Source: a virus. From it: a stretch of 64,000 nucleotides of DNA. The stretch's first letter is position 1. Each line of letters opens with the position of its first letter. The stretch is from positions 1 to 64,000 of IMG/VR virus record IMGVR_UViG_3300042555_002918. One strand, written 5' to 3'. The position numbers and the translations under genes are program-made. Positions 1,040 to 13,289 of the stretch are shown here, piece by piece. Under the pieces are notes generated by a model. That model was not told the origin of the DNA. It worked only from the letters and a program-made list of their open reading frames with translations, and searched no databases.

Positions 1040-4000
1040 ATGTCAAATTTTTTCAAAACTAAAATTGCCGGAGAGCAAATTCTCGATGGCGCAGTAAAAC
1101 GTCAAAATCTCGAAACATCTATCGTTTCAGACATTGACACACTCAAGGAGAACGATGTCACTAAAGCGGGAGATATCGCTCAGCTACAGACCGACCTCAC
1201 CGCTGAGGAGACCGCTCGTGTTTCAGGCGATACCGCTCTTGGTATTCGTGTCGATGGAGTCGAGGGAGATCTTAGCGCCGAGGTTACCCGAGCTCAGGCT
1301 GCTGAGGCTCAGGTTCTTTCCGATGCAAATAGCTATACAGACACGAAGGTTGCTGACCTTGTTAATTCGGCTCCAGCAGTTCTTGATACACTCAAAGAAC
1401 TTAGCGATGCCTTAGGCTCCGATCCATCATTCGCAACTACCGTTGCTAACAACATCGGTGAAGTGGCTGCTGACATCGCCGCTGAGGAGACTCGCGCTCT
1501 CGCTGCTGAAGGAGTTCTCCAAGGAAACATCGACGCTGAAGAGACTCGTGCTGTCGCTGCTGAGGGAGTCATCGCTTCCGATCTCGCTGCTGAGGTAACT
1601 CGCGCTACCGGCGTAGAGGCTGATCTCGCTTCCGACATTGCGGCTGAAGAGACCCGTGCTCTTGCTGCTGAGGCAGGACTTGCCTCCGACATCACTGCTG
1701 AGGTAACTCGTGCTCAAGGCGCCGAGACCCAACTTTCTAACAGCATTTCATCTGAGGTAACTCGTGCTCAAGGTGCTGAGGCTGATCTCGCTTCGGATAT
1801 CAGTGCTGAAGAATCCCGTGCAATGGCCGCCGAAGGAGCTCTTGGAGTTCGCATTGACGAAGTAGAATCCGACATCGCTGCTGAAGAGACTCGTGCTGTC
1901 GCTGCTGAGGGAGTTATCGCTTCCGATCTCGCTGCTGAGGTAACTCGCGCTACCGGCGTTGAGGCTGGACTTGCTTCAGACATCGCTGCTGAAGAGACCC
2001 GTGCTCTTGCTGCTGAGGCTGATCTCGCTTCAGACATCGCTGCTGAGGTAACTCGCGCTCAAGGCGTAGAAGCCGGACTCGCTTCCGACATCGCAGATGA
2101 AGAGACTCGTGCTCTCGCTGCTGAAGGCGCTCTTTCGAGTCGTCTTAATGTCCTTGAGCAGGATCCAACCACAAAGACCTATGTAGACCAACAGGTTGCG
2201 GGTCTGGTTGACTCTGCCCCAGAGGTTTTAAACACCCTTAAAGAGCTTGCTGATGCAATTGGCGCAGACGCAAACTTTTCAGCCACAATATCTGGAATGG
2301 TAGGCGAAGTAGCATCTGACCTTGCTGCTGAAGAGACCCGTGCCCTCGCTGCTGAGGCTGATCTCGCTTCTGACCTTGCCGCCGAGGTGACTCGTGCTCA
2401 AGGTGCTGAGGCTGATCTCGCTTCCGACATTGCGGCTGAAGAGACTCGTGCTGTCGCTGCTGAGGGAGTTATCGCTTCCGATCTCGCTGCTGAGGTAACT
2501 CGCGCTACCGGCGTAGAGGCTGATCTCGCTTCCGACATCGCGGCTGAAGAGACCCGTGCTCTTGCTGCTGAAGGCGCTCTTGGAGTTCGAATTGATGCAG
2601 TTGAAGCAGATATCGCTGCAGAGGAAACTCGTGCTCTCGCTGCTGAGGCCGATCTCGCTTCCGACATCGCTGCTGAAGAGACCCGTGCTGTCGCTGCTGA
2701 GGCCGGACTCGCTTCTGACATCACTGCTGAGGAAACTCGTGCTCTCGCTGCTGAGGCTGCTATTGCTGCGGACCTCATATCAGAGACCAGCAACCGCGAA
2801 ACCGCCGATTTAGCTCTTGGAGTCAGAATCGACGGCGTTGAAGCAGATCTGGCTGCTGAGGTTACAGATCGAACAAGCGCAGATAGCGCCCTTTCGACTC
2901 GTATCTCTGCACTTGAGGCAGATGCAACAACTAAGAGCTACGTAGATCAAAAGTTTGCTGAGGTAGTTGATAATGCTCCTGCGGTACTCGATACACTTAA
3001 CGAGCTGGCTCAGGCAATAGGCGACGATCCTGCATTTATTACGAACATCAGCTCAACCATCGATGCAGTAGAAGCAAGCGTAAGTGCTGAGGTAACTCGC
3101 GCTCAAGGCGTTGAGGCTGGACTTGCTTCAGACATCGCTGCTGAAGAGACCCGTGCTCTTGCTGCTGAGGCTGGACTTGCTTCCGACATCGCAGATGAAG
3201 AGACTCGTGCTCTCGCTGCTGAGGCTGGACTTGCTTCAGACATCGCTGGCATTGACAGTCGTGTTACAACTCTTGAGGAAAGTGCTTATATAATTCGAGA
3301 AGTTCCATCAGGACTTATCAATGGCACTAACACCGTCTTCCAACTTGATTCTGTTCCTTCCACGGGAACCGAGCAGGTATATTTGAACGGTCTTCTTCAA
3401 GAGGCTGGCGCTTCTGGTGACTACACGATCTCAGGAGACACTATTACGTTTGGTGTAGCCCCAAGCACCGGATATTCTTTGGTAGTCAGCTATGTGACTG
3501 GAGCCCCAGTCTTTAACAGCGTAGGTTCTGGAAGTTCTTCTGGATTCAGTGGTGATTACAACGACCTGGTCAACAAGCCTAGCTTGTTTAGCGGCTCCTA
3601 CACGGACCTTTCAAACAAGCCACAATTGTTTAGTGGTTCTTATACGGACCTCTCAGACAAGCCAAGTTTGTTCAGTGGAGATTACAATGACCTGATCAAC
3701 AAGCCTACAATCCCAAGTCTCACATCGGTTGAGTCGCGAATCTCCTCATTGGAAGCTGACGCTACGACTAAGACCTATGTAGACCAACAGGTTAGTGGTC
3801 TTGTGAACTCGGCTCCTGCAGTTCTTGATACTCTCAAAGAGCTTGCTGATGCTTTGGGATCCGATCCAGCTTTTGCGACAACGGTCTCAAATTCGATTGG
3901 TGCGATTTCAAGCCGAGTTACTTCACTTGAGAGCGTTACTCTTGCTAGCGTAGCTACAAGCGGTTCGTATGCAGATCTGACAAATAAGCCAACTTTGTTT

Positions 4001-5176
4001 AGCGGAGCTTACGCTGACCTAACTGGCACCCCGTCCTTGGCTAGCGTAGCTACAAGCGGTTCGTATGCAGATCTGACAAATAAACCAACTTTGTTTAGCG
4101 GTTCGTATGCAGATCTGACAAATAAGCCAACTTTGTTTAGCGGAGCTTACGCTGACCTAACTGGCAAGCCTTCTTTAGCTAGCGTAGCTACAAGCGGTTC
4201 GTATGCTGACCTCAGTAACAAGCCAACTCTTGCAAGTTTTACGACATTAACTTCACCAGCTTCGGGTCATCATTTAAGATACAACGGAACTTCTTGGGTT
4301 AATGCTGCTATTCCTGCATCCGACTTACCTGTAGCTCAACAAAGCTCTGGAATTATTGACACTGGGTTTCAGATATTCTCTGGTGACAAACGATTCAATG
4401 GCATTATTCAAGCATATGGTGGAGTTGCGGCTAAAGCACCTGCTATCAATCAGCCTGCACTTCGTGTTCAACCAGCCGGAGTATCGCAAAGTATTCCACT
4501 CATCTACCTGGAAAACACTTCGGGCGGTGGAGCATTTACTGTCAGCACATCTGGTGCAACAACAATTGCTCTTGCCAGCGCAAGTGCAAAAGGCATGGTC
4601 ATTACGGCTGCTGCTTCACAAACAGGGAACTTGTTTGAGGTGCAAAACAGTGCGGGAACTGCGAAGACTAGCATCACAAAAGATGGTACGATCGTATTGA
4701 ACGCACTTGGCAACACTACAACCTATGGAATTGGAGTAAGTTACGACTTAAATGGCGGAACCTGCTTGTCCATTCAGCACTCGGGAACTGCTGGTCGGTT
4801 TTTGGCGTCATTCTATAATTCAGCTGCACAGATGGTGGGGTCTATTACCCACGATGGTTCAACTACATCATATGCAACGACCTCTGACCACCGCCTCAAG
4901 GAAAATTTTGTTCCTCTGACCGGTGCTCTTGATAGAGTTGGTAGTTTGCCAATCTACCGTTTCAATTTCAAAGCTAATCCAAGCAAAGTAGTTGATGGAT
5001 GTAAGGCACATGAAGTTGCTGCGGTTTGTCCAGAGGCAGTAAATGGGGATAAAGATGCTACAGATGCTGATGGGGGAATTATTCCTCAGTCAGTTGACTA
5101 TAGTAAGTTAATCCCACTTCTCGTCGCATCAATTCAGGAGCTTAAGGCTAAAGTTGCCGCTCTTGAGAGTAAGTAA
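1040..5176 (+). CDS. Long tail fibre with C-terminal peptidase S74 chaperone
   Basis: This 1378-residue protein is built from modules: coiled-coil units (AAEETRALAAEAGLASDI type); recurring TTKTYVDQQ / APAVLDTLKELADALGSDP segments; an INGTNTVF beta domain like the tip of the upstream fibre; and a series of SGSYADLTNKPTLF repeats at about residues 830-1060. The last ~110 residues contain TSDHRLKENF and DYSKLIPLLVASIQELK, the hallmark of the peptidase S74 intramolecular chaperone, which helps trimerise the fibre and then cleaves itself off. The Ser of TSDH is the expected nucleophile by family knowledge. It is likely the main host-recognition fibre. Repeats shared with the upstream gene make recombination between the two likely. 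Confidence 0.93.
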   Translation: MSNFFKTKIAGEQILDGAVKRQNLETSIVSDIDTLKENDVTKAGDIAQLQTDLTAEETARVSGDTALGIRVDGVEGDLSAEVTRAQAAEAQVLSDANSYTDTKVADLVNSAPAVLDTLKELSDALGSDPSFATTVANNIGEVAADIAAEETRALAAEGVLQGNIDAEETRAVAAEGVIASDLAAEVTRATGVEADLASDIAAEETRALAAEAGLASDITAEVTRAQGAETQLSNSISSEVTRAQGAEADLASDISAEESRAMAAEGALGVRIDEVESDIAAEETRAVAAEGVIASDLAAEVTRATGVEAGLASDIAAEETRALAAEADLASDIAAEVTRAQGVEAGLASDIADEETRALAAEGALSSRLNVLEQDPTTKTYVDQQVAGLVDSAPEVLNTLKELADAIGADANFSATISGMVGEVASDLAAEETRALAAEADLASDLAAEVTRAQGAEADLASDIAAEETRAVAAEGVIASDLAAEVTRATGVEADLASDIAAEETRALAAEGALGVRIDAVEADIAAEETRALAAEADLASDIAAEETRAVAAEAGLASDITAEETRALAAEAAIAADLISETSNRETADLALGVRIDGVEADLAAEVTDRTSADSALSTRISALEADATTKSYVDQKFAEVVDNAPAVLDTLNELAQAIGDDPAFITNISSTIDAVEASVSAEVTRAQGVEAGLASDIAAEETRALAAEAGLASDIADEETRALAAEAGLASDIAGIDSRVTTLEESAYIIREVPSGLINGTNTVFQLDSVPSTGTEQVYLNGLLQEAGASGDYTISGDTITFGVAPSTGYSLVVSYVTGAPVFNSVGSGSSSGFSGDYNDLVNKPSLFSGSYTDLSNKPQLFSGSYTDLSDKPSLFSGDYNDLINKPTIPSLTSVESRISSLEADATTKTYVDQQVSGLVNSAPAVLDTLKELADALGSDPAFATTVSNSIGAISSRVTSLESVTLASVATSGSYADLTNKPTLFSGAYADLTGTPSLASVATSGSYADLTNKPTLFSGSYADLTNKPTLFSGAYADLTGKPSLASVATSGSYADLSNKPTLASFTTLTSPASGHHLRYNGTSWVNAAIPASDLPVAQQSSGIIDTGFQIFSGDKRFNGIIQAYGGVAAKAPAINQPALRVQPAGVSQSIPLIYLENTSGGGAFTVSTSGATTIALASASAKGMVITAAASQTGNLFEVQNSAGTAKTSITKDGTIVLNALGNTTTYGIGVSYDLNGGTCLSIQHSGTAGRFLASFYNSAAQMVGSITHDGSTTSYATTSDHRLKENFVPLTGALDRVGSLPIYRFNFKANPSKVVDGCKAHEVAAVCPEAVNGDKDATDADGGIIPQSVDYSKLIPLLVASIQELKAKVAALESK

Positions 5177-7159: not shown

Positions 7160-8554
7160 ATGTCTGATACTAGCCTTAGTCCAGAAGTCCTTCGTAGGGA
7201 ACGAGACTACTACATTAACTACCTGAAAATTGTCGCCTACAATGGCAAAGAGTACTCTATCGCGTCTCAAATGATAGAGTTTACTTTTCACGAAAACATT
7301 GCGACCCCGTGCGTTTACTGTTCAGTTACTCTGTACGATGCGGTTGACTTCCCCACTCTTCTTCCAATGATTGGCGAAGAGCGCCTTAAAGTTAGCTTTA
7401 CCCGACAAGATGAACACGCAGCAAAAAATGAGGGAGGATTTAAGAAGCCAATCGTTCTCGACATGCCCATCTATAAGATATCAGGTAGGTCACCGGAGAA
7501 CACAAGCAGAAAGGGGCAGGTTTACACTCTTCACGCCACTTCGGATGAGATGCTTCAGTCACTGAAAAGCAAAGTACGCCTAGGCCTTAAAGGAATGACC
7601 TACTCGGAGATGGTCGACAAGGTGTTTAACGAATACGTAAAGGTTTCAAAACCCGTTGAGGTTGAACCTACAAAGCACCTCCACGATTTCTGCATATCAA
7701 ACATGAACCCATTTAGGTTTATTACGCATGTGTCGGGCAAATCAATCAGTCCGAAATACGGAGGATGCCTGTACTTTTTCTATGAGGACCGAGACAAATT
7801 CAACTACAAGAGCCTAGGAAGCCTCTTCGAGGGGAATAAGAGCCTAGACATAAACTTTGCGGTAAAAAACACCCTCAAGCAGGGAGGAGATAAGGCTGGT
7901 CCAAAGGAACGCATATTTGAAAGGGACATGTATGCAGTTGAGGCTCTTGAGCATAAGGGCAGTTTTGACCTGATTAAAACTATTGTGTCAGGCGGCTACT
8001 CCCAAAAAGCGATTTTTTTCGACCCAGTTCGGCAACTTATAACAACTAAAGACTTTGACATTGAACAGGAATGGGACTCCTTACCCCATATCGATAAGGT
8101 AAAGCCATTCACAGAAGGCAACAAAGCAAAGGCGGCCCCCGATTCACGAATAACAGTCCAATGGACGAACGCCGAGCACGACAGTGTTGAGCATATTTCA
8201 GGGAAAGAGCCAGGTATTAACCCGTTTAGAGCGGAAGATTTCAGCCTTCGGGTAAACGCTCAGATGGACGGAATGATCAGAAACTCCATTGACGTGGTTA
8301 TACCCGGAACACCCGATTTGGTGGCAGGGCAAGTCATTAACTTTCACCTACCAGAGCACCTAGGAAAAGTCAGTAAAGAAGAGCCCGAGGAACCTGACGC
8401 ATATCTGCAGGGTAAATACCTTGTAGTCAGCGTGATGCATCGACTCTCAACTACAGAGTACACGTGCAGTGCAACTATAGTTAAGGACTCCTTCTACTCG
8501 AACATCAAACATCGCAACCCCGAGGAAGAGTACCCAATCAATAAGATTTACTAA
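7160..8554 (+). CDS. 27: Baseplate hub protein, gp27-like
   Basis: The 464-residue product starts with a strand-rich domain (SQMIEFTFHENIATPCVYCSVTLYDA followed by LLPMIGEERLKVSF), typical of the tube-like domains of gp27/gpD hub proteins. An IYKISGRSPENTSRKGQVYTLH segment and a C-terminal INFHLPEHLGKV region also fit. The hub forms the trimeric base of the cell-puncturing device and connects to the tube. It overlaps the next gene at the stop/start (TAATG). The separate spike or lysozyme protein (gp5) is not in this window. Confidence 0.72.
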   Translation: MSDTSLSPEVLRRERDYYINYLKIVAYNGKEYSIASQMIEFTFHENIATPCVYCSVTLYDAVDFPTLLPMIGEERLKVSFTRQDEHAAKNEGGFKKPIVLDMPIYKISGRSPENTSRKGQVYTLHATSDEMLQSLKSKVRLGLKGMTYSEMVDKVFNEYVKVSKPVEVEPTKHLHDFCISNMNPFRFITHVSGKSISPKYGGCLYFFYEDRDKFNYKSLGSLFEGNKSLDINFAVKNTLKQGGDKAGPKERIFERDMYAVEALEHKGSFDLIKTIVSGGYSQKAIFFDPVRQLITTKDFDIEQEWDSLPHIDKVKPFTEGNKAKAAPDSRITVQWTNAEHDSVEHISGKEPGINPFRAEDFSLRVNAQMDGMIRNSIDVVIPGTPDLVAGQVINFHLPEHLGKVSKEEPEEPDAYLQGKYLVVSVMHRLSTTEYTCSATIVKDSFYSNIKHRNPEEEYPINKIY

Positions 8555-9216
8555 TGACGGATTTACGAGACACCAAACGAAAGAAGTCAGCCCGGTCTCC
8601 GGAGGATATCTTCGAGATAGGTATCCAGGAAGCTCAGACTGCCGGAGTCTTCCGTAAACGCACCCAGAGCGCAATTAAATGGTACCTTGGCCTAATCCGC
8701 CGCCTTGCCCCATCCCCAATCAACAGGGCAGGATTTACCAAACGAGAGCGGCTTCAGCAGGGACTGCGCTTCGGGAGCCTCTACTGCTACGTGTATGACG
8801 CAAAAACTAAAGACGACCTACCATACTGGGATAGGTTTCCATTGGTATTCCCGATAACCCCTACAAAGAATGGAAATGGCTGGTACGGCCTTAACTTACA
8901 CTACGTTCCACTCGAATACCGGGCAAAACTTCTATCTGTGCTCTATCGCGTAGCAAACAATAAGCGATACGACGAGACAACCAAATTGAAGCTCTCATAC
9001 GAATATTTGAAAGACCTAGGCGGGATGAACAAAGCCTTGGCTATGGTTGCCTTCAAGCAATACCTAACAAGCCACGTCCGAAGCCGTTTCATTTATATCA
9101 CCCCGGATGAGTGGCCCATCGCCTTATTTCTACCCATGGAACAGTGGCAAAAGAAGAGCTTTGGGGAGGTCAATTTTGACATACAGGGCCAGATTAAACG
9201 GCTCAGGGATAAATAG
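8554..9216 (+). CDS. Conserved T4-like virion or assembly protein of unknown role
   Basis: This 220-residue basic protein has the motifs GSLYCYVYDAKTKDDLPYWD, RFPLVFPITP and GLNLHYVPLEYRAKLL. I associate these with an uncharacterised family found near baseplate genes in many marine T4-like phages; one recollection is the DNA end-protector gp2, but I am not confident and do not assign it. It lies inside the baseplate operon, overlapping the hub gene, so a structural or assembly role is likely. Confidence 0.6.
   Translation: MTDLRDTKRKKSARSPEDIFEIGIQEAQTAGVFRKRTQSAIKWYLGLIRRLAPSPINRAGFTKRERLQQGLRFGSLYCYVYDAKTKDDLPYWDRFPLVFPITPTKNGNGWYGLNLHYVPLEYRAKLLSVLYRVANNKRYDETTKLKLSYEYLKDLGGMNKALAMVAFKQYLTSHVRSRFIYITPDEWPIALFLPMEQWQKKSFGEVNFDIQGQIKRLRDK
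9208..9215 (+). promoter_or_regulatory. Possible late promoter GATAAATA, 8 nt before the next start
   Basis: GATAAATA overlaps the stop codon of the preceding gene and lies 8 nt before ATG 9224. The spacing is the same as at many minus-strand late genes here and would give a transcript with almost no leader. Confidence 0.4.
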
Positions 9217-9223
9217 TCAGTAT

Positions 9224-9877
9224 ATGCCTATCTCAATCGACATTCTGAAAGCGGCTCTTGACCTGGGAAATGGTCCTACCATGGCATCCCAGTTCCAGGT
9301 CATTTTTAGCCTACCCTCGGCACTTAGAACAGGAAGCGAGGGATTTAACTCTACTTCACTTTCGATTCTTTGTCAGAGTGCTACCTTGCCAGGAACCCAA
9401 GTAGCAACAACCGAGCTTCCGGTTTATGGACCAGGAGTAAAAATGCCATATGGCCTGATTTATCAGGACTTGAACATCACCTTCCTGTGTACCAATTCAA
9501 TGGCACAGAGGAAGATATTTGAGGAGTGGCGCCGGATTATAATCGACCCCACGTCAAACTACGTAAATTACTACGATACATATGTAGGAGAGATACTTGT
9601 ACAGAAGCTGAATCAAAGTGGCCAAGCATCACATAGCGTGCTCTATGAAGAGGCTTTCCCTATTGCCATTTATGAACAAGAGCTTGCCTCTACCAATAAC
9701 GATTGGTTGAAGTTATCCGTACAGTTCTCTTATAGACGATGGAGAACCAAACTGGATCTCACTGCTGCATCAACGGCGGGTTTTGGATCTGTAGAGATAC
9801 CCGAGGCGCCGGGTGAAGTTGGTAATCCAAGTGACATATTTAAAAACACACCAGTACCAAAGGTACCTAGTTTTTAG
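9224..9877 (+). CDS. Tail-tube-like baseplate protein
   Basis: I start this 217-residue protein at MPISIDILKAAL because a longer upstream extension would overlap the preceding gene and is not tube-like. The pattern is that of the tail tube fold: ASQFQVIFSLPS, then LCQSATLPGTQV, LIYQDLNITFLCTN, and FEEWRRIIIDP before YYDTYVGE. A second tube protein (18700-19257) lies next to the sheath gene, so this copy, within the hub genes, is more likely a baseplate-proximal tube paralogue, as T4 gp48/gp54 are. No strong ribosome binding site is visible. Confidence 0.68.
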   Translation: MPISIDILKAALDLGNGPTMASQFQVIFSLPSALRTGSEGFNSTSLSILCQSATLPGTQVATTELPVYGPGVKMPYGLIYQDLNITFLCTNSMAQRKIFEEWRRIIIDPTSNYVNYYDTYVGEILVQKLNQSGQASHSVLYEEAFPIAIYEQELASTNNDWLKLSVQFSYRRWRTKLDLTAASTAGFGSVEIPEAPGEVGNPSDIFKNTPVPKVPSF

Positions 9878-9900: not shown

Positions 9901-10641
9901 ATGCAACGGATAACCCCAATCGTACATCCAACATTCGAAATTGCCATTCCATCATCAGGAAAGAAAGTCACTTCTCGCCCTATCGTTACACGAGAGCGAA
10001 AAGCTCTCCTTACCGCCCTACAATCTGCAGACAGTGTAACAATAGGCCGAAGCGTCAAAGACATTATTAAGTCATGTGTAAACGACATCACGGTTGATGA
10101 CCTGACCACTTTTGACTTCGAATGGATCTTCCTACAACTAATTATCAATTCAATAAAAGAAACGCTCGACTTGGAGGTACGTATTCCGAACCGCGAGGAA
10201 GAGTGCCAGGAGTGTGGGCGTACTCGAATCATGAGAGTAAATTTACGAGACGCGCAAGTTGAGGGAATCAAGCGAGAAAAATCAGACTTTTTGATTGAAA
10301 TCTCTGCTGGAGTCGGCTTGAAGCTGCGGTATCCAACGGAGAAGACACTAGAGGCCCTAGCAGAAAACTCGACCAACAAGAGTCACATAGAGAAATTAAC
10401 GGACCTTATTGCTCTATCTATAGAATCGGTATTTGACGAGTCAGGAACAAAGCTGTTTTCTGAATTTGATTATAAGTCTCAGATTGAATTTTTGGACTCA
10501 CTCCCAATACCGGTAACGGATAGGTTAGAGGCATTTGTTGAATCAGTTCCGAGAGTTGAATTGAATGTGGTCGTAGAGTGCCCCAAGTGCAAATTCAAAG
10601 CCTATCATCAGATGTCGGGGCTAGCTGATTTTTTCGTCTGA
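9901..10641 (+). CDS. 26: Baseplate hub/tail assembly protein, gp26 family, zero-frame product
   Basis: The 246-residue product fits the T4 baseplate protein family of gp26 (Pfam T4_baseplate). Two Cys pairs (CQECGR near residue 100 and CPKCKF near 232) could bind one zinc ion. The frame stops at TGA 10639-10641, but directly before it is T_TTT_TTC followed by a hairpin, so a fraction of ribosomes probably shifts into the -1 frame and adds about 58 residues. The order shifted gene then tape-measure-like gene mirrors gpG/gpGT and the tape measure of lambda, suggesting a tail-assembly chaperone role. Confidence 0.75.
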   Translation: MQRITPIVHPTFEIAIPSSGKKVTSRPIVTRERKALLTALQSADSVTIGRSVKDIIKSCVNDITVDDLTTFDFEWIFLQLIINSIKETLDLEVRIPNREEECQECGRTRIMRVNLRDAQVEGIKREKSDFLIEISAGVGLKLRYPTEKTLEALAENSTNKSHIEKLTDLIALSIESVFDESGTKLFSEFDYKSQIEFLDSLPIPVTDRLEAFVESVPRVELNVVVECPKCKFKAYHQMSGLADFFV

Positions 10642-10664
10642 CGCTAGGTGATGAAAACCTAGCG
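10629..10664 (+). promoter_or_regulatory. Candidate programmed -1 frameshift signal
   Basis: The slippery heptamer T TTT TTC occupies 10629-10635 in the zero frame. A 6-nt spacer (10636-10641) includes the zero-frame stop. An 8-bp perfect stem follows: CGCTAGGT (10642-10649) pairs with ACCTAGCG (10657-10664) around a 7-nt loop. All three elements are in canonical order and spacing. Confidence 0.85.
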
Positions 10665-10811
10665 GGATACTACAGCGTTTGCTTCGACCTAATGCATATT
10701 CACAAATGGAGTCTTTATGACATTGAGAATATGTACCCATACGAGCTAGAGGCCTACAAGATAATGCTACTGAACCACCTAAGCGATTTGAAGAAGAGCT
10801 CACAGCGATAA
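10629..10811 (+). CDS. C-terminal extension reached by -1 frameshift
   Basis: This frame is open from just after a TGA at 10626 to TAA at 10811 and has no suitable start codon near its beginning. Its peptide (GDENLAGYYSVCFDLMHIHK, then IENMYPYELEAYKIMLLNHL) looks like real protein: amphipathic, with aromatic residues, and ending 3 nt before the next gene. Joined at 10635 to the upstream gene it gives a product of about 303 residues. A separate small gene starting at an internal ATG (10692) is the alternative, but it would leave the open first ~20 codons unexplained. Confidence 0.75.
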   Translation, partial: FFRLTLGDENLAGYYSVCFDLMHIHKWSLYDIENMYPYELEAYKIMLLNHLSDLKKSSQR

Positions 10812-10814
10812 ACT

Positions 10815-13289
10815 ATGGATACCAAAAAAGCATCTGCCGAGAACAGGGCATATTTCGAGTTCATTGATGAGCTTAGAAAGAGTTCACGCCAGGATTCACC
10901 TACCGCTGAAATTTCCAGGATGTATAAGGAGGTTGCCGACATCCTCGCTGAAGCATTTGACGAGTTTAACCCAGAAGACCTCCCTAAATATCAAGATAGA
11001 CTTGAAGGCATCATTAACCTTCAGGAGACTCAGCCCTCTCTGTCAGATCCTCTTTTCAAGGAAGATATTCAAAAAGCCAAAGCCCTTCTTGACCAAAAAG
11101 TAAGGCAGAGGTTTGGTGCCATCCAAAAGATCTCAAGGATTGCCTCGGGTACGCTCCGTACTTTTGGGGATATAAGCTCTCATGTACGAGATTTCATTTC
11201 TATTGGTGACCAATCCGCCGATGCTGGAAGAAGGTTTAGTCAGATAAATTTCGGATTTGGTAAAAGGCGTCTGGACCCGGAAGAAGAACGTCGACAGTAC
11301 GATATCCTTAAGGGAAATGATTCACCTGAAGGGACCAATCAGCCAAACATTCAAACTCCCGTCCCCCTTAACAGCTCAACTATTGGTAATGGCAAACAGA
11401 TCTTGCCAGTCAAAGATGACAAGCTGATCGGGACTAACACCCAACAGAACAAGGTACTGTTACAGCTCTTTCACGTCACAAAGGATTCAAACTCTGACAT
11501 CAAGCAAATTAAGGCCCTGATTAAGGCGGATACGGCAAAAGCTGCAAAGATACGCAACAAAGACGAACTGAATCAAAAAGAAGATAAACAGGAAGCTAAA
11601 GCGTCGGTAAAGCCAACAGATAAGGGAATACTTACTGACTTGGTTTCAATTTTCGGCGGAAGGCAAGCTTCCAGTGATTCTCCAAGCGAACAGGCCGCAC
11701 CAACAACACTGCCGCAGGATACCACGGGGCTACTTGGAAGGGTTGGGGTAATCACATCGGCATTACTCTCCAAAACCGCTGGCGTACTAGGAGGAACGAT
11801 ACTGGGCGGCGTAGGTGGAAGTAACTTTTGGGGACCAAAAGCTAAGCCAATAAGGAGCAAGATCCAGTCAGCCGCAAACAAAACAGGAGAGATGATCAGA
11901 GGAGAGGACTACTATAAAGACCTCCTTCAATCACAGAGTCATGATCTCATGTCTCAGGACAAAGCTGAAGAGGCGGCCCTCGCGTACCTTGAAAAGATTG
12001 CCAAGCAGAAAAGGGACCTGTGGAGAAAGGCTTTTAGTAATGGTTCGCGGTTTGGTGATGGTAGCTACACCATGGGCGGTAAACCTTTGGATATTGACGA
12101 GGCAGTCGCAGACGCCCAAGGCGCTGAGGAAAAGGCAAAAGAGTACAAAGCGTATATCGAGGCAAAGAGAAAGAAAAACCATAATTTGTCATCAACTGCC
12201 AAGTTTAATCTTGATGGAAAGGAGTATAGGAATCCTATCTACTCAGAACAGGAAAGAAGCAAGATTGATGAGTCAAATAGGACCGTTCCGAATGACGGTG
12301 GATTGTTCGATTCTGAAAACTTTTGGTCCAGTGTATACGAAAAAGGTATGGGGCTGTTTTCTTCTCGGTCGTCAGACAATACAAGTGACGGAGAAGAACT
12401 TTCAGCAGACGTTTCAACACTCAATCAAGGTCAAAACTCACAACTAAACTTTTCCCAAGGCGGACCTGGGCTATTATCAGCTAAAGAGACCTCAGGGAGA
12501 GAGAAGGTTGGCGCAACAAGTGTACCCAAAGACGAACTAGATACGGTGATGCGAGGAATTGCAGCAGCCGAGACCGGTCCAGTAACTGATGACAGAGACC
12601 TTAACGACAGAACTCGGGCTATACGGACAACGGGAGGGGCAAATTCCAGTGCTTATGGTAGTTATCAGATTACCTATCGCCTTGCTAAAGCACATTTGGA
12701 AAAAGGATTATTCGATAGCGACCCGGAGCTAAAGAAGTGGACAAAAGAGCGATTTGTGCCACATGGAAAGAAGCTACTTAAATCCTCATATAGCGACCCC
12801 CAATACGGTGCTGGCGGAGAGGGAGACCTCAACGGCGACAAGGACCGTGAAATGTATCAGAAAATGTCCCGAGCAATCATCGGGGAGAACTACGCTCGAA
12901 ACAAGGGAGACATGCTCTCGGTACTGGGGGAGCATAGATTTGGTCAGTCTGAGAGGCATAAGTTGCTTCAGGCAGATCCTCAATATGCACAAAGAGCCAT
13001 GGCTCAATGGAAGAAGGATCAGCAGACTATGATGGCTAGTGCCAACCAGAAGGCCAATGTGAATCCTGTTTCACAAGCTGGTACCCAAGTTGCGCTCAAT
13101 CAGCTTTCGAAGGAACAGGAAGCCGCTCGCTCGGCCCCAATAGTTGTTGCCGTGCCTGCCCCACAGCCAGTTTCGCATCAGACCCAACCGGCAGGTGGAG
13201 TATCCACTAAGTCATTTGGAGCTTCCCCAAATGGGGCCTCAGACTCTAGCTTGATGCTTGGGATACGCCAGTCTGTCTCTCCAATCTAA
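10815..13289 (+). CDS. Tape-measure-like tail protein with lysozyme/transglycosylase-like domain
   Basis: The 824-residue protein has an N-terminal half rich in charged helices, and a hydrophobic Gly-rich stretch near residue 310 (GLLGRVGVITSALLSKTAGV). From about residue 575 it has a globular domain: GIAAAETG, then SSAYGSYQITYRLA and a later GEHRFGQSERHKLLQ. The Glu in AAETG followed by GSYQ is the pattern of lytic transglycosylase/lysozyme folds. Its place right after the frameshift gene is where tape measure genes sit. Tail length control plus local peptidoglycan cutting during DNA entry is inferred; T4 gp29 is the nearest functional counterpart. Confidence 0.6.
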   Translation: MDTKKASAENRAYFEFIDELRKSSRQDSPTAEISRMYKEVADILAEAFDEFNPEDLPKYQDRLEGIINLQETQPSLSDPLFKEDIQKAKALLDQKVRQRFGAIQKISRIASGTLRTFGDISSHVRDFISIGDQSADAGRRFSQINFGFGKRRLDPEEERRQYDILKGNDSPEGTNQPNIQTPVPLNSSTIGNGKQILPVKDDKLIGTNTQQNKVLLQLFHVTKDSNSDIKQIKALIKADTAKAAKIRNKDELNQKEDKQEAKASVKPTDKGILTDLVSIFGGRQASSDSPSEQAAPTTLPQDTTGLLGRVGVITSALLSKTAGVLGGTILGGVGGSNFWGPKAKPIRSKIQSAANKTGEMIRGEDYYKDLLQSQSHDLMSQDKAEEAALAYLEKIAKQKRDLWRKAFSNGSRFGDGSYTMGGKPLDIDEAVADAQGAEEKAKEYKAYIEAKRKKNHNLSSTAKFNLDGKEYRNPIYSEQERSKIDESNRTVPNDGGLFDSENFWSSVYEKGMGLFSSRSSDNTSDGEELSADVSTLNQGQNSQLNFSQGGPGLLSAKETSGREKVGATSVPKDELDTVMRGIAAAETGPVTDDRDLNDRTRAIRTTGGANSSAYGSYQITYRLAKAHLEKGLFDSDPELKKWTKERFVPHGKKLLKSSYSDPQYGAGGEGDLNGDKDREMYQKMSRAIIGENYARNKGDMLSVLGEHRFGQSERHKLLQADPQYAQRAMAQWKKDQQTMMASANQKANVNPVSQAGTQVALNQLSKEQEAARSAPIVVAVPAPQPVSHQTQPAGGVSTKSFGASPNGASDSSLMLGIRQSVSPI

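Follow-up and report, generated by a model that had tools for sequence, protein, structure and literature searches.

The slip site of the lambda tail assembly chaperone is G_GGA_AAG. Lambda gpG/gpGT and other tail assembly chaperones with a -1 frameshift are made as a short form and a rare -1 extended form (Xu, Hendrix & Duda 2004). Both gp26 and gp51 of T4 have been classed as hub assembly chaperones; assembly requires gp51, and the particle lacks it (PMC3004832). The tail assembly chaperones of T4-like phages were identified by Vladimirov, Gautam & Davidson (Virology 2022, doi 10.1016/j.virol.2021.11.003), whose work is described here as later papers cite it. According to these papers, some T4-like phages have a short chaperone gene and a longer fusion copy instead of frameshifting (Vladimirov et al. 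2022 as cited by PRFect, PMC10885494), and poly-T -1 signals occur in the TAC-N genes of T4-like phages (Vladimirov et al. 2022 as cited in PMC12846349). As these citations convey it, the principle of chaperone frameshifting in T4-like phages is already published, so that the gain here lies mainly in breadth and in detail of the mechanism. I found no literature report of the breadth, of the Phe-Phe recoding control or of the lineage-specific hairpins given below, which is weak evidence, most subscription journals being outside the search. The chaperone locus of Vandenendeviridae/Andersonviridae has a conserved GTTTTT slip motif and a -1 extension before the tape measure, and this extension is often mis-annotated as a separate gene (PMC12846349).

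The window analysed here is a stretch of 64,000 nucleotides from the IMG/VR virus record IMGVR_UViG_3300042555_002918. It has a locus comparable to all of these. As in lambda, a short form with a putative rare -1 extended form is encoded between a tail-tube-type gene and a long gene, and the slip site lies near the stop of the short form. Unlike in lambda, the heptamer is T_TTT_TTC and the setting is the baseplate hub of a contractile tail; the likeness described here is one of arrangement. The T4-like chaperones of Vladimirov et al., as cited, share with the window virus the short and fusion forms and the poly-T -1 signals. The Vandenendeviridae/Andersonviridae locus shares the T-rich slip motif and the -1 extension, whereas the virus families differ, and the likeness described is again one of arrangement.

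The locus and its neighbours

The features of the locus are as follows.

9107..9877, + strand: upstream tail-tube-type gene (phrog_45, E=9.1e-38)
9901..10641, + strand: gp26-type gene, short form (G-like), 246 aa (PF12322 T4_baseplate / phrog_150)
10629..10635, + strand: slippery heptamer T_TTT_TTC at the 3' end of gp26, in frame
10635..10811, + strand: -1 frame extension, 58 codons and TAA, matching the gp51 C-terminal domain; T-like part of the putative long form (phrog_634)
10636..10641, + strand: 6-nt spacer GTC TGA, which holds the zero-frame stop
10642..10664, + strand: candidate stimulatory hairpin, 8-bp stem and 7-nt loop (RNA folding; similar covarying hairpins in two other lineages)
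10815..13289, + strand: downstream 824-aa gene, tape measure by position and length only

The gp26 ORF starts with ATG and stops with TGA at 10639-10641. Its final codons are GAT TTT TTC GTC TGA; thus, T_TTT_TTC is in the right phase for tandem -1 slippage by two tRNA-Phe, and the heptamer has the X_XXY_YYZ form of a programmed -1 frameshift site in the zero frame. In the -1 frame, a TGA at 10626-10628 lies just 5' of the heptamer; from there this frame is open to TAA at 10809-10811, and the ATG of the next gene follows at 10815, 3 nt past the end of the extension. The initial annotation had described the heptamer, the 6-nt spacer with the stop, a perfect 8-bp hairpin, the 58-codon -1 frame and its end 3 nt before the next gene, and all of this proved exact to the base. 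The same arrangement was found in L001, a contig from another metagenome, and in an 80%-identical relative (L002/L003), so it is not an assembly error. The bare string TTTTTTC is not rare in the window (13 observed, 18.7 expected). By sequence comparison, the significance of the heptamer lies in its position, its frame, the homologous extension and its conservation, not in its bare occurrence.

In a profile search, the window gp26 matched PF12322 (E=6.8e-42; 144 bits, with a curated cut-off of 24.5) and phrog_150 (E=3.1e-44), and it belongs to the family. A PDB sequence search with the gp26 profile gave nothing relevant. The AlphaFold2 model of gp26 (pLDDT 91.8) matched T4-like hub proteins in BFVD with E down to 7e-20. 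When the model was compared with the PDB by Foldseek, the highest probability among the matches listed was that of the HK97 tail assembly chaperone 2OB9 (0.66), a weak match below significance (E=0.79, TM 0.39 over 60 columns). The extension matched phrog_634 ("baseplate hub assembly catalyst", E=4e-16, positions 58-112 of 121), while pairwise BLASTP of the extension with T4 gp51 gave nothing significant. Judged from profiles and alignment, by which the link was made, the extension is the C-terminal domain of T4 gp51. PF12322 and phrog_634 each occur once in the entire virus record of 145,388 bases, both at this locus. The signal, the identity of the domains and the single gene copy are thus directly established. 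The short and long forms would have a common N-terminal domain, as read from the sequence only.

Between the window and the 80%-identical L002, the extension has 31 base differences, 25 of which lie at third positions of the -1 frame, and 22 codons changed synonymously versus 6 non-synonymously. By this pattern, purifying selection acts on the extension as read in the -1 frame. Together, the phrog_634 match and the third-position bias mark a conserved -1 coding frame.

The order of a tube-type gene, a chaperone pair and a long gene is lambda-like. The initial annotation had compared it to lambda G/GT followed by the tape measure; the tube-type gene, the pair and the long gene are in place, but the tape-measure label has no family match. 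Profile searches with the 824-aa protein gave no confident family match and none to tape-measure families, phrog_1283 (gp29) had no match anywhere in the virus record, and BLASTP found no similarity to the corresponding KVP40 and Bellamy genes. Thus, the gene is tape-measure-like by position and length only, and on these grounds it would be the tape measure. Its C-terminal stretch SSAYGSYQITYRLAKAHLEKG looks lysozyme/transglycosylase-like by eye, with no support from a family search. Other neighbours matched a baseplate tail-tube cap, gp53 (wedge), a hub-like tail protein, a DNA end protector and a head closure protein, which places the record in the T4 superfamily.

Two further observations were made in the window. 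As called, the gp2-type ORF (DNA end protector, 8554-9216) and the tail-tube-type ORF (9107-9877) share 110 nt, read in different frames; the latter probably starts downstream of 9107. At 1040-5176, a fibre-like protein of 1378 aa has many AEVTRA/LASDI-type repeats and no NCBIfam match; its C-terminus resembles what I take to be an intramolecular chaperone, S74-like.

Conservation of the slip site and folding downstream

From IMG/VR and named phages, 99 loci were assembled, of which 71 were left at <80% identity, the window included. The named phages and groups sampled were Kyanoviridae, KVP40 and Vibrio D484, Aeromonas 65 and AsFcp_2, Xanthomonas X1, Pseudomonas Milchi, Stenotrophomonas Mendera and Vibrio 1.255. 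Most loci were found in the main scan by peptide patterns in the N-terminal half of gp26, so the slip site was not selected for. Of the 71 non-redundant relatives, sampled outside the T4 group, 70 have T_TTT_TT[C/T/A] in the zero frame, no more than 60 nt away from the stop of gp26, and their -1 frame encodes the gp51 domain. The last letter of the heptamer is C in 57 of the 70, T in 12 and A in one, and exactly one sense codon separates the heptamer from the stop in 56. In 1000 synonymous-codon shuffles, the heptamer was present in a mean of 33 loci and a maximum of 45, and of the 58 Phe-Phe pairs at other places in these genes, only 2 are spelled T_TTT_TT. The conservation of the signal, like the -1 coding constraint, is directly established. 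The lone exception is Vibrio phage 1.255 (Ackermannviridae), which has no heptamer and has a TAATG overlap (L099 3040-3075), suggesting stop-start coupling instead of frameshifting.

By tblastn, the window-type gp26 was found in 564 phage records, the window-type extension in 542 and a T4-like gp51 in 1339. In many public phage genomes, the gp51 extension is unannotated or called as a truncated ORF with an internal start (for example, L004 2507-2692, L008 2507-2686, L100 3217-3384 and L102 2600-2695), and in none of the records inspected is it joined to gp26. The present analysis addresses this systematic annotation gap: most of the frameshift-type records examined have no gp51 or a truncated one.

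In the window, the hairpin has the arms CGCTAGGT (10642-10649) and ACCTAGCG (10657-10664), a perfect 8-bp stem and the loop GATGAAA. It lies 6 nt 3' of the heptamer, within the 5-9 nt range for a downstream stimulator. The predicted minimum free energy is -13.9 kcal/mol for a 42-nt segment (z -3.25) and -16.6 for a 55-nt segment (z -2.15). When positions between 240 nt upstream and 90 nt downstream were sampled, the predicted folding was strongest right after the heptamer (mean -7.4 kcal/mol), with a position 30 nt upstream nearly as strong (-7.1 kcal/mol); directly 3' of the heptamer, the mean z is -1.65 (n=70 relatives).

Hairpins lie 4-8 nt 3' of the heptamer in three lineages, and their register is lineage-specific, with i+j = 34 in the group of the window and 40 and 39 in two other groups. 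In the latter two, 91% and 100% of the cells are paired, compared with 25-67% in slid controls, and both sides of the stem have changed together (G-U to U-A and U-G, U-A to A-U and G-C, C-G to G-C); the covariation of the 39 group is modest since few of its pairs vary. A simple stable hairpin just 3' of the heptamer was not found in about half of the relatives, among them some whose heptamer is perfect. Thus, of the two elements whose conservation the initial annotation had proposed to check, the heptamer is kept in 70 of 71, while the hairpin is missing in about half and has compensatory changes in the two lineages tested. L012, L020, L024, L026, L031 and L048 have a perfect slippery run and no simple downstream hairpin; several of them share a pyrimidine-rich CCTCTCTCAC-like stretch after the heptamer, and four of these hairpin-less relatives have 8 sense codons ahead of the stop. 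No Rfam family was found at the locus. A Shine-Dalgarno-like upstream stimulator is weakly enriched (55 of 70 compared with 50.3; 1 of 300 shuffles) and is not claimed.

How the extension may be expressed

Is the extension a separate small gene, a stand-alone gp51 with its own start, translated by re-initiation or translational coupling at the gp26 stop? Many GenBank records do show a separate gp51 ORF of 31-60 aa (S-RSM4, ACG-2014g, Bellamy, Mendera, KVP40), but the annotated starts vary from record to record. In the window virus, the earliest in-frame ATG of the extension is codon 20 (10692), which has no Shine-Dalgarno-like sequence, as the initial annotation had recognized in giving the extension no good start, and the -1 frame is closed just 5' of the heptamer. 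Conserved residues come right after the slip site, ahead of any possible start, and 44 of the 70 relatives have no ATG within the first 10 codons past the site. In some relatives, including KVP40 and L010, an ATG in the -1 frame overlaps the gp26 stop, so separate initiation is possible there; some relatives have TAATG at this stop. The initial annotation had named relatives with an independent start as the case against its reading; most of the 70 have no ATG near the site, and an independent start is possible in KVP40, L010 and Vibrio phage 1.255. Moreover, T4 gp51 has the extension only fused to a gp26-like domain, and re-initiation leaves the conserved heptamer unexplained. I therefore regard a separate gene as quite improbable.

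Slippage of RNA polymerase on the T run, rather than of the ribosome, could also produce the fusion, the slip site being a run of six to seven T. Six T are short for RNA polymerase slippage, however. Ribosomal slippage agrees with the phase of the heptamer, the nearby stop, the compensatory changes in the downstream hairpins and the fact that T_TTT_TTC is preferred to longer runs; transcriptional slippage seems slightly less probable still. A chance heptamer combined with a sequencing or assembly frameshift in one continuous gene would agree with the bare TTTTTTC not being enriched in the window. However, cultured phages with finished genomes and independent contigs have the same break, in the same frame and at the same site, and this explanation is hardly credible, already refuted by the heptamer being kept in 70 of 71.

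With programmed -1 ribosomal frameshifting, the majority of ribosomes would end at TGA 10639-10641 and give the short gp26 of 246 aa. A minority would pause at the hairpin 10642-10664 with tRNA-Phe in both ribosomal sites on T_TTT_TTC, slip back by one base and read 58 more codons, giving a gp26-gp51 fusion of roughly 302 residues. If the pair works as lambda gpG/gpGT does, the domain common to both forms would coat the tape measure, and the rarer form would use its gp51 C-terminal domain to recruit subunits of the tube or hub. For the window virus, I infer the occurrence of slippage, its efficiency and the chaperone role.

T4-type phages as a natural control

The same two domains are found in T4, where gp26 is PF12322 alone and gp51 is PF12322 followed by the C-terminal domain. 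In T4 gp51, residues 1-201 form a complete PF12322 domain (E=3.9e-52), and a phrog_634 domain follows (147-246); thus, this protein is the gene-encoded equivalent of the frameshift product. In contrast to the one gene and frameshift signal of the window virus, T4 has two genes, on opposite strands, and its gp26 lacks the slippery site. T4 has two PF12322 genes, whereas each of the 13 phages of the other type that were tested has exactly one; the heptamer is missing from only one of these 13. In T4-type gp26, the C-terminal Phe-Phe is kept, while the heptamer is absent in 27 of 27 genes and TTC-TTY is used in 26 (these 27 were not redundancy-filtered).

Because of the signal, its conservation in 70 of 71, the T4-type control and the lineage hairpins, a programmed -1 frameshift giving a lambda G/GT-like pair is very likely. 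I hold with high confidence that, from a single start, the locus encodes two forms of a tail (baseplate-hub) assembly chaperone, as the comparisons of sequence indicate. The short and long pair proposed in the initial annotation is strongly supported by this comparative evidence (the heptamer, the gp51 domain and the T4-type control). Its recasting of the gp26 family as a chaperone pair is also supported comparatively but is not new, since the recasting of the T4-like proteins as tail assembly chaperones is published (Vladimirov et al. 2022, as cited). Its statement that it knew of no such standard T4 feature is right in that T4 has no frameshift, but the same pair is still made there, from two paralogous genes.

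Thus, the T4 superfamily probably has one chaperone pair with two interchangeable solutions. Most lineages (cyanophages, KVP40-like phages, Aeromonas phages and the window virus) would use a near-invariant T_TTT_TT frameshift, while in the T4-type lineage a duplicated, fused gp51 would have replaced it and the slippery site of gp26 would have been lost by synonymous Phe-Phe recoding. That the frameshift came first is suggested by its spread over more divergent lineages, considered without a rooted tree. If the reading of two solutions is true, it explains the long-standing "catalyst" label of gp51 as that of the rare GT-like form, and the frameshift and the duplicated gene offer a clean comparison for asking why the ratio of short to long chaperone has to be fixed in phages.
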